64,000 nucleotides of DNA from Geodermatophilus poikilotrophus. Lineage in GTDB: Bacteria; Actinomycetota; Actinomycetes; Mycobacteriales; Geodermatophilaceae. The notes beneath the pieces were generated by a model. That model was not told the origin of the DNA. It ran no database searches and worked only from the letters and a program-made list of their open reading frames with translations. This document shows positions 2,847 through 4,876 of the stretch, one piece after another. A program made the translations under genes and the position numbers. How positions within the stretch are numbered: the first letter of the stretch is position 1; each line of letters opens with the position of its first letter. The stretch is from the NCBI RefSeq assembly GCF_900111455.1, contig NZ_FOIE01000007.1, positions 184,959-248,958 of the forward strand, read 5' to 3'.

Positions 2847-2916
2847 CGGGTGCGTGGACGTCCTACGATCGGCGCCACGGTGGGTGGACCGCCGCCCACG
2901 TCGACGAGGAGTGGTC

Positions 2917-4077
2917 ATGCGAGATGCCGTCATCTGCGCCGCGGTGCGCACCCCGGTGGGCAAGCGGGGCGGAGGGCTGTCCGGCGTGCACGCCGTGGAC
3001 CTGTCCGCCGCCGTGCTCGACGCCCTGGTGGAACGCACCGGCATCGACCCGGCCGTGGTCGAGGACGTCTTCTGGGGCTGCGTGAGCCAGGTCGGCGAGC
3101 AGACGTTCAACATCGGTCGCAACGCCGTGCTCGCCGCGGGCTGGCCGGAGTCGGTGCCCGGGACGACGATCGACCGGCAGTGCGGCTCCTCGCAGCAGTC
3201 GGTGGCCTTCGCCGCCGCCACGGTCATCAGCGGCCAGGCCGACGTCGTGGTCGCCGGGGGCGTCGAGTCGATGAGCCGGGTCCCGATGGGCGCCGCCCGG
3301 GCGGACGGCTCGGCCGGCAAGCCGTTGGGGCCGCGCTTCCTCGAGCGCTACGGCGGGGTCTTCCCCAACCAGGGCATCGGCGCGGAGATGATCGCCGAGC
3401 GCTGGGGCTTCTCCCGCACCCAACTCGACGAGTACTCGCTCGCCTCGCACGAGAAGGCCGCCAAGGCGCAGGCCGACGGCGCCTTCGAGGAGGAGATCGT
3501 CCCGGTGACCACGCCGGACGGCATCGTGGTGAGCGCCGACGAGGGGATCCGCCCCGGCGGCACCCTGGAGAAGCTGGGGTCGCTGAAGACCCCGTTCAAG
3601 GAGGACGGCGTCATCAGCGCCGGCAACGCCAGCCAGATCTCCGACGGCTCGGCCGCGCTGCTGGTCACCACCTCGGAGCGGGCCCGCGAGCTCGGCCTGC
3701 GCCCGCTGGTGCGCATCCACACGACCGTCATGGCCGGCGACGACCCGGTCATCATGCTGACGGCGCCCATCCCGGCCACGCACAAGCTGTTCCAGCGCTC
3801 AGGCCTGTCGGTCGGGGACATCGGCGTCTTCGAGGTGAACGAGGCGTTCGCGCCGGTGCCGCTGGCCTGGCAGGCCGAGACGGGGGCCGACGCCGGCCGG
3901 CTCAACCCGCGCGGTGGCGCGATCGCGTTGGGCCACCCGCTGGGCGCCTCGGGCGCGCGCATCATGACCACGCTCGTCCACACCATGCAGGCCACCGGCA
4001 CCCGCTACGGCCTGCAGACGATGTGCGAGGGCGGTGGGATGGCCAACGCGACCATCCTGGAGCTCGTCACCGACTGA
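2917..4077 (+). CDS. Acetyl-CoA acetyltransferase / thiolase
   Basis: Thiolase of 386 residues, a normal length. The nucleophilic Cys is in DRQCGSSQQ near residue 89. The C-terminal catalytic pair is in ALGHPLGASGAR (His) and CEGGGMANA (Cys). It is likely to catalyse the last step of fatty acid beta-oxidation or acetoacetyl-CoA formation; substrate class cannot be decided from sequence alone. The ATG at 2917 has GAGGAG at 2906-2911, and an in-frame GTG lies two codons upstream. A -10-like TACGAT lies at 2864. This gene has no counterpart in the mycobacterial ppiA-crgA interval, so it is a lineage-specific insertion into the conserved block. Confidence 0.93.
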   Translation: MRDAVICAAVRTPVGKRGGGLSGVHAVDLSAAVLDALVERTGIDPAVVEDVFWGCVSQVGEQTFNIGRNAVLAAGWPESVPGTTIDRQCGSSQQSVAFAAATVISGQADVVVAGGVESMSRVPMGAARADGSAGKPLGPRFLERYGGVFPNQGIGAEMIAERWGFSRTQLDEYSLASHEKAAKAQADGAFEEEIVPVTTPDGIVVSADEGIRPGGTLEKLGSLKTPFKEDGVISAGNASQISDGSAALLVTTSERARELGLRPLVRIHTTVMAGDDPVIMLTAPIPATHKLFQRSGLSVGDIGVFEVNEAFAPVPLAWQAETGADAGRLNPRGGAIALGHPLGASGARIMTTLVHTMQATGTRYGLQTMCEGGGMANATILELVTD

Positions 4078-4096
4078 GATCTCCACAGGCGCCCGA

Positions 4097-4133
4097 CGAC
4101 GGCCCCCGGTCCCCTGCGGACCGGGGGCCGTCG
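4097..4133 (+). terminator. Strong hairpin after the thiolase gene
   Basis: A perfect 16-bp stem (CGACGGCCCCCGGTCC with its complement) around a CCTGC loop, 20 nt after the stop. It insulates the DnaA-box region from thiolase transcription. Confidence 0.85.
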
Positions 4134-4254
4134 CCGTGCTGGGGACGACGCCTGTGGCGACCGGGATCTGCCGTGGTCAGGCCGCGTGTCGCGCTATCAC
4201 ACGACGGGTACGTCGGCACCTGGGCTCCCGTCCCGCGGCTGGCGCCATGTCGAC

Positions 4255-4473
4255 TCGTCCACAGTTGTGTGCACAGCTGGGGATGGACTCACAGGGGTGT
4301 AGTTACTGGGGTGCCCTTCTCGTCACACCTGCCACACCTCTGGTCAAACCGCAGGTCAGAGCCACGCGGTCGAACACCCGTTCTCCACACGTCGTGGACA
4401 ACCCTGGGGGTTCAGCGCTTTGTCGACCTGTGGACAGCGTCGAGTCGCTGTGCACAACGCTGCTTGTGGACAA
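4255..4473. other. Cluster of DnaA-box-like 9-mers (candidate origin or DnaA-binding locus)
   Basis: Within 220 bp, relative to TTGTCCACA: TCGTCCACA at 4255 (+), TTCTCCACA at 4381 (+), TTGTCCACG at 4393-4401 (-), CTGTCCACA at 4429-4437 (-), TTGTGCACA at 4449-4457 (-) and a perfect TTGTCCACA at 4465-4473 (-). A weaker CTGTGCACA lies at 4268-4276 (-). The interval 4078-4603 has no credible gene and is visibly less GC-rich than its surroundings. It lies between the 3' ends of two convergent genes, each closed by a hairpin. In actinomycetes oriC is normally between dnaA and dnaN, which are not in this window, so this is either the origin in an unusual place or a secondary DnaA-binding site. Confidence 0.65.
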
Positions 4474-4503
4474 CACTGTGCGTATCCGACCGGTGACAGA
4501 CGA

Positions 4504-4535
4504 GAGGCCCCCGTCCCATGTGGGACGAGGGCCTC
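4504..4535 (-). terminator. Hairpin downstream of crgA
   Basis: GAGGCCCCCGTCCC pairs with GGGACGAGGGCCTC with a single mismatch and an ATGT loop. It closes crgA from the right and marks the right edge of the DnaA-box segment. Confidence 0.65.
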
Positions 4536-4603: not shown

Positions 4604-4876
4604 TCAGCGCCAGCGCATCGACATGACGAGGCCGGCCACCATGAGGCCGAAGCCGATGGCGAAGTTCGCCACGCCGAGGTCGGCCATGAACGGGATGAGC
4701 TCCCCGGCGACGTAGAACACGACGATCCACAGCAGCCCCAGCAGCATCAGGGCGACCATGAGCGGGGCGTACCAGCGCGGGCTCGGCTGGACGGCCCGCG
4801 CGTGCGTCGTCCCGGACTGCAGGGTGCCCTGCGGCGGCGTGTAGACCGACTTCTTGCGCACCTTGGACTTGGGCAC
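4604..4876 (-). CDS. crgA: Cell division protein CrgA
   Basis: 90-residue membrane protein that helps recruit the divisome (in mycobacteria it contacts FtsZ, FtsI and FtsQ). The N-terminus is VPKSKVRKKSVYTPP, the family signature, followed by two transmembrane helices near residues 38-58 and 68-87. The GTG at 4876 has GGAGGGAG seven bases upstream; reading further upstream would run into the divergent DUF881 gene. The 68-bp spacer to that gene contains an 8-bp perfect inverted repeat (GGCCGGTC at 4894-4901, GACCGGCC at 4908-4915) that could serve as a shared operator. Confidence 0.95.
   Translation of the reverse strand: MPKSKVRKKSVYTPPQGTLQSGTTHARAVQPSPRWYAPLMVALMLLGLLWIVVFYVAGELIPFMADLGVANFAIGFGLMVAGLVMSMRWR

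Follow-up and report, generated by a model that had tools for sequence, protein, structure and literature searches.

The question raised by this locus is why a dense cluster of DnaA boxes should stand beside a cell division gene, well away from dnaA. The locus lies in a 64,000-nucleotide stretch of a Geodermatophilus genome (C15:184959-248958 of the 4.83-Mb, 18-contig assembly; hereafter the window), where the cluster is located 3' of crgA and separates this gene from a convergent thiolase gene. Based on comparisons across actinobacteria combined with published work on DnaA and on the MerR-family regulator McdR, we propose, with modest confidence, that the cluster is part of a conserved extra-origin DnaA control element beside the crgA 3' end that would be gated by McdR. 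What we observed in this analysis are the boxes, a palindrome, their conservation and their position, and a related DnaA element is retained at the crgA 3' end in many actinobacteria.

Six sites within one mismatch of TTGTCCACA, one of them perfect, are found in the 219 bp of the cluster, at 4255(+), 4381(+), 4393(-), 4429(-), 4449(-) and 4465(-), in agreement with the first-pass annotation of this DNA, which had also indicated one weaker site; boxes with two mismatches include those at 4267(+) and 4420(+). The GC content of the cluster is 60.3% compared to 75.5% in the window, confirming that the DNA is AT-richer, as had been described. Across the whole window, 11 boxes were observed against 3.88 expected (at most one mismatch), and 200 dinucleotide shuffles of the window gave a maximum of three boxes per 220 bp, reached once and never exceeded. 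The cluster is the only place in the 357.7-kb contig with at least three boxes per 500 bp (TTRTCCACA, at most one mismatch), and in 800 kb of the relative G082 this density is attained twice, with six boxes at the crgA element and three elsewhere.

The element opens with box 1 (TCGTCCACA, 4255-4263, plus strand, one mismatch), the anchor of a widely shared core, and with the degenerate box 2 12 bp after it (GTGTGCACA, 4267-4275, plus strand, two mismatches), at a position that holds a better box in many other actinobacteria. Then follows the palindrome ACTCACAGGGGTGTAGTT (4287-4304), which matches the published McdR/ResR operator AATnACAnnnnTGTnATT with two mismatches and is a part of the element that the first-pass annotation had missed. 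Further along are the word GCAGGTCA (4351-4358, plus strand; present in 48/63 family elements, genus g4 left out) and two boxes with one mismatch each, TTCTCCACA (4381-4389, plus strand) and TTGTCCACG (4393-4401, minus strand), at +126 and +138 from box 1. A weak box with two mismatches (TTGTCGACC, 4420-4428, plus strand) opens the conserved stretch GTCGACCTGTGGA, and the array ends with three minus-strand boxes, namely CTGTCCACA (4429-4437, one mismatch, 36 bp after the 4393 box), TTGTGCACA (4449-4457, one mismatch) and the perfect TTGTCCACA (4465-4473).

Within Geodermatophilaceae, we compared 70 genomes of 12 genera, out of 94 with crgA, and aligned the elements of 48 of the 70 by genus. 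At least two boxes are present within 700 bp 3' of crgA in 61/70 genomes, and the element is approximately 220 bp long in most of those examined, with extra boxes at fixed distances. The spacing of 138 and then 36 bp recurs in 56/63 genomes (g4 left out; tolerance plus or minus 1 bp; at most two, one and two mismatches for the three boxes, respectively), a plain count taken over related genomes. Words outside the boxes are also kept in the family block, i.e. CACAGCTGGGGACAGA, CACA-N4-TGTAGTTAC, GCAGGTCA and GTCGACCTGTGGA.

Outside the family, 49 genomes of 22 other families were assessed, drawn from 239 with crgA (the best 30, without our own, plus 20 chosen for family spread). At least two boxes occur in the 400 bp 3' of crgA in 38/49 and on the 5' side in 0/49 (shuffles: mean 0.26, maximum 2), the palindrome with at most two mismatches occurs in 34/49 and 0/49, respectively (shuffles: mean 0.06, maximum 1), and boxes and palindrome (at most three mismatches) occur together in 30/49. 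The usual form consists of two boxes 12-13 bp apart, in some cases as an inverted pair, then GGGGA or TGGA and the palindrome, with the order reversed in a few. The core layout of box 1, box 2, GGGGA and palindrome is shared with the window at similar spacing, box 2 of the window being degenerate, and 17 mycobacterial records show a box, a box pair and a McdR-type palindrome in series. Partial forms exist as well: the palindrome is missing from f18, which has boxes in two of three genomes, from f34, which has one box, and from f20, which has boxes only; conversely, one of the two f27 genomes carries the palindrome but no boxes.

The palindrome motif was derived from our alignments prior to the comparison with PMC9040748, where McdR (ResR, Rv1830; MerR family) is reported to bind AATnACAnnnnTGTnATT and to repress whiB2. 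Overproduction of McdR leads to filaments and to a higher copy number near the origin (PMC9040748), and the protein accepts a few mismatches and is found across actinomycete families (PMC10336103). In our alignment of 116 of the 120 loci listed by the pattern scan described below (four were too close to an end), the consensus is GAATNACACNNGTGTNATTC, and the conserved columns that the pattern does not force are -9 (A, 96%), -8 (A, 77%) and +8 (T, 92%). The distance from the start of box 1 to the palindrome centre is 38-41 bp in 106/116 segments, the pattern fixing the order and leaving the gaps loose. Searched alone with at most two mismatches, the palindrome is found in 11/15 genomes at one to six sites each (control 0); near dnaA (150-1,227 bp before and approximately 960 bp after), it was detected in 0/20 genomes at the same threshold.

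Some of the single palindromes have recurring neighbours. In four genomes (loci L350, L336, L352 and L353) the palindrome adjoins cofD, and in L350 (G082:C1:4522981-4523000), the one examined for this, it lies between the CofD gene and a WhiB gene; L340, in our own genome (C14:15531-15550), is identical in sequence to L350.

The predicted partner is encoded in the same genomes. A McdR homologue with a MerR_1 domain is present in our own genome at C7:253209-253961, and an in-frame search recovered the homologue once in 50/53 genomes and in 48/48 of good quality, our own included, at 62-100% identity. In 15/15 loci aligned, the bifunctional-nuclease gene is followed by a gene for a MerR protein whose DNA-binding part is conserved, a 16th genome being without that nuclease gene. 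On the basis of gene order, we take this MerR gene to be Rv1830, an assignment that gains support from FtsR (NCBIfam) being the cluster's other MerR gene. As other partners of the palindrome, MtrA was rejected, as its published box consists of two direct repeats with a 4-bp spacer and no inverted repeat, and WhiA and NrdR were provisionally set aside on the basis of their motifs.

For a wider survey, a composite pattern (TCCACA, gap, TGKGGA, gap, TNACANNNNTGTNRT) was shaped on crgA flanks and then run, with no use of crgA itself as a criterion, against 84,980 species of bacteria and archaea, giving at least 120 matches, a figure that is not a census and in which L219 and L271 represent the same species. 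Judging by record titles, the 120 matches listed are all from what we take to be Actinomycetota. The retained piece includes crgA for 105 of them, and in 104/105 the match is at most 450 bp from the crgA 3' end. We also applied it to 53 whole genomes, the majority of which had contributed to shaping the pattern, and found it in 19, with one copy each (reversed control 0); all but that of G142, which is 1.6 kb away, are at the crgA 3' end (18/19). The pattern is strict and hence misses cases, since direct counting found boxes together with the palindrome in 30/49 outside genomes.

Other listed matches stand beside DNA polymerase III alpha (four; L177, L181, L253, L254), dnaA (L276), rnpA (L213) and nrdI (L200), hinting, as far as sequence can tell, at a small DnaA/McdR regulon near replication genes. 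Eight more (L201, L219, L222, L225, L228, L272, L282, L287) have no assigned neighbour, some of them being at the end of a piece.

We propose that the element would operate as follows. The core consists of two to three DnaA boxes beside a palindrome that matches the McdR motif. DnaA would load onto the spaced boxes approximately 15-42 kb from oriC, at a site that, owing to this distance, would be copied soon after initiation; the distance between dnaA and crgA, taken in 59 family genomes where a single contig carries both, is 15.5-42 kb with a median of 21.4 kb. The loaded site may then draw DnaA away or reset its nucleotide state. When abundant, McdR would occupy the palindrome, which is separated from the last core box by a few bases, and would weaken or remodel the DnaA complex, and more active DnaA would then reach oriC, while McdR would repress division via whiB2. 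DnaA binding at the mycobacterial locus (PMC7738170) and McdR binding to its motif in promoters (PMC9040748) are published elsewhere; we infer McdR binding at the crgA-side element, its effect on DnaA there, and the action through titration or through nucleotide exchange.

Several points weigh against this proposal and have to be set beside the evidence above. The DnaA and McdR sites in Geodermatophilus are predicted from sequence, the window palindrome has two mismatches to the operator, and box 2 is weak. Streptomyces-like genomes keep the boxes (6/6) and McdR (6/6), but the palindrome is found in 0/6 (at most three mismatches). All seven genomes of genus g4 are without boxes and palindrome (7/7), yet McdR is present in the two tested. 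Together, the Streptomyces-like genomes and the element-free g4 limit the claim that McdR gates the element. Among the 49 outside genomes, 11 are without two boxes, 15 without the palindrome (two mismatches) and 19 without the pair, and the four genomes of f3, f5 and f44 have neither boxes nor palindrome. McdR might also act on origin copy number indirectly, and binding at the crgA-side locus is not reported in the accessible text of PMC9040748, which names three of five DIP-seq peaks, the RNA-seq and DIP-seq data being deposited under PRJNA760667 and PRJNA760668. In addition, two genomes have the local minimum of the raw cumulative GC skew, considered below, at the element and not at dnaA, as could be expected of an origin as well.

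The g4 genomes that lack the element are G003, G014, G022, G029, G036, G040 and G050, and by eye a different open reading frame extends close to crgA in this genus. Such natural loss could serve for testing whether the element is necessary.

The alternative that survives best, although we consider it unlikely, is that of a plain DnaA sink or nucleotide-exchange element, acting by titration or in the manner of datA and DARS, with a palindrome that is unrelated and may be, e.g., a local transcription signal. The persistence of boxes without palindrome in the six Streptomyces-like genomes is as expected for such an element, and PMC7738170 itself names titration and nucleotide exchange as possible roles of the mycobacterial site. 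However, an unrelated palindrome would not be expected to occur in 34/49 outside genomes on this side of crgA (at most two mismatches) and in 0/49 on the other, to keep a narrow distance from box 1 (-41 to -38 in 106/116, in a set found by the pattern), or to form a composite that is present once per genome where present at all.

We regard as improbable that DnaA together with McdR controls transcription of crgA or of its left neighbour from this site. In its favour, the start of the left gene lies 65 bp downstream of the box palindrome in M. tuberculosis (PMC7738170), and among the matches listed in our scan the composite also lies beside DNA polymerase III alpha (four), dnaA (one), rnpA (one) and nrdI (one). 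The element is nevertheless at the 3' end of crgA and, in the window, between convergent genes, with left flanks, read by eye, that vary among families; no sigma-70-like promoter was scored in the region, other promoter types being outside the scoring, and neither neighbour changed in expression in the dnaA mutants of PMC7738170.

A true or auxiliary replication origin of the lineage appears very improbable. The first-pass annotation had left three readings side by side, the origin itself, a relocated origin, and a DnaA-titrating or regulatory locus, of which the last fits best and the two origin readings fit less. Its observation that the cluster is outside the dnaA-dnaN interval is correct: dnaA is at C15:155034-156995, approximately 32 kb to the left and outside the window, and the dnaN start is near 157.7 kb, so that the cluster does not adjoin dnaA as oriC does in actinomycetes (dnaA-dnaN). 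For an origin speak the strongest box cluster on the contig and the raw cumulative GC skew, which reaches its local minimum here both in our own genome (approximately 190 kb on C15) and in the complete relative G082 (approximately +40 kb, with dnaA at 1 kb). The annotation had named a skew minimum and denser boxes at dnaA-dnaN, together with unconserved boxes here, as what would speak against its reading of the cluster, and we find instead the raw minimum and the stronger boxes at the element, and boxes that are strongly conserved in the relatives checked, which keeps some room for an origin. However, fourfold-site skew shows no switch at the element or at dnaA, and skew therefore leaves the question undecided, as the raw minimum is at the element but the fourfold-site skew is flat. 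In both C15 and G082 the raw skew is mostly negative from dnaA to crgA, turning positive at the crgA element.

The stretch after dnaA provides the stronger argument. It carries its own boxes at recurring distances in 28 family genomes (28 of 30 dnaA loci, two being cut; the dnaN start was found in about half), and 188/918 columns have at least 90% identity in the 26 aligned, which are mostly of one genus (g12: 15). The minimum 40-bp GC is lower there, with a median of 0.46 (n=28, 0.40-0.53) versus 0.53 at the crgA elements (n=63, 0.43-0.65), the ranges overlapping, and in our own genome it is 0.45 after dnaA versus 0.55 at the element. Mycobacterial-type genomes with the crgA-linked element also have boxes after dnaA. 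The origin readings fit less because an origin-like layout is kept after dnaA and because the crgA element coexists with boxes there; dnaA-dnaN is probably the origin, and the cluster probably is not. A relocated origin as the principal interpretation was accordingly rejected on conservation after dnaA and AT-richness, skew being undecided. Chance or compositional box enrichment is negligible, as shuffles, conserved spacing and the pattern scan all oppose it and no support for it was found.

The word TGACCTGC, the complement of GCAGGTCA, or GCAGGTCA itself, is also present in 23/28 family stretches after dnaA (C15:156996-157725 in our own genome) and in 6/6 Streptomyces-like crgA regions, whereas four Streptomyces-like genomes lack it in the stretch after dnaA. 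The region C15:155098-155150, close to the 5' end of the dnaA frame, holds two boxes with one mismatch, further boxes with two mismatches and the word ACACCGGTGT, a possible autoregulation site as judged from its letters.

Extra-origin DnaA sites are already known as a kind, and so is the crgA-side locus in mycobacteria, between Rv0010c and Rv0011c, the latter of which we take to be crgA. In E. coli, datA, DARS1 and DARS2 are non-coding, extra-origin elements with a few DnaA boxes at fixed spacing and a site for a second protein. The element described here likewise combines boxes with a predicted binding site for another protein at fixed spacing, with the difference that this protein would be McdR and not IHF or Fis; the likeness is one of layout. 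In Streptomyces coelicolor, the oriC region reportedly contains the extra-origin DnaA-box clusters D78, H69 and H24, and deletion of D78 is said to cause more initiation. H69 could be located where the crgA-side boxes are; a difference is the absence of the palindrome in the six Streptomyces-like genomes.

At the Rv0010c-Rv0011c locus, purified DnaA binds strongly in vitro, as affinity sequencing and gel shifts have shown (Hicks et al. 2020, PMC7738170), and the homologous region is bound by DnaA in vivo in a second species, as determined by ChIP-seq (PMC7738170). The site was described as a palindrome of two box-like sequences, with variants associated with longer cells and with its function left open (PMC7738170). 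It resembles our element in being at the same place and in being a cluster of DnaA-box-like sequences, whereas the crgA-side element is found in many families, is longer in Geodermatophilaceae and includes a McdR-type palindrome; in its accessible text, PMC7738170 reports 'no obvious correspondence' in other bacterial species and names no partner protein. The recurrent insertion point GAATC of PMC7738170 coincides with the first bases of the palindrome, and GAATCACA is present in 10/17 mycobacterial records; the palindrome may thus matter. In comparison to the McdR/ResR operators of PMC9040748 and PMC10336103, the likeness is that our palindrome matches the motif and that the genome encodes a McdR homologue; the operators described there are in promoters (whiB2, rplN and others), whereas that of the window is between convergent genes beside DnaA boxes, and the word dnaA is absent from the text of both papers. 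In the literature covered, which excludes subscription papers, supplements and bioRxiv, conservation across actinobacteria, a fixed architecture and a link to McdR were not found, and in the accessible text of the papers naming both dnaA and Rv1830/ResR/McdR, the two are treated separately and are not joined through the crgA-side site.

In the window, the left neighbour of the element is the thiolase gene (2854-4077, plus strand), and its constant neighbour is crgA (4604-4876, minus strand; cell division protein CrgA, PF06781). The first-pass annotation had described convergent genes that each end in a hairpin, and this arrangement is borne out, with hairpins at 4091-4139 for thiolase and 4504-4535 for crgA; no T-tailed terminator was scored in the intergenic region. 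Within our own genome, the 261 bp at 4240-4500 match nowhere else at E 0.001. A structured RNA was considered and rejected as chance, since the 6C RNA Rfam match over the thiolase hairpin reaches 27.7 bits (gathering score 47) with an E of 0.21.

In conclusion, how actinobacteria restrain DnaA is largely open, and we know of no recognised counterpart in this group of the DnaA control elements of E. coli. The composite, single-copy and at a constant address, offers an exact place for testing, and it suggests how McdR might come to influence origin copy number and what the mycobacterial DnaA site might do. Lying next to a cell division gene and sharing its palindrome with a whiB promoter region, the element could provide a link between initiation and division. 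We consider evenly balanced the broader proposal of an actinobacterial replication-division switch, in which DnaA and McdR would meet on the composite and the level of McdR would set how much active DnaA reaches oriC. If true, this switch would explain the raised origin copy number on McdR overproduction and would join two separately published pathways, perhaps used by these bacteria instead of Hda, SeqA, datA and DARS.
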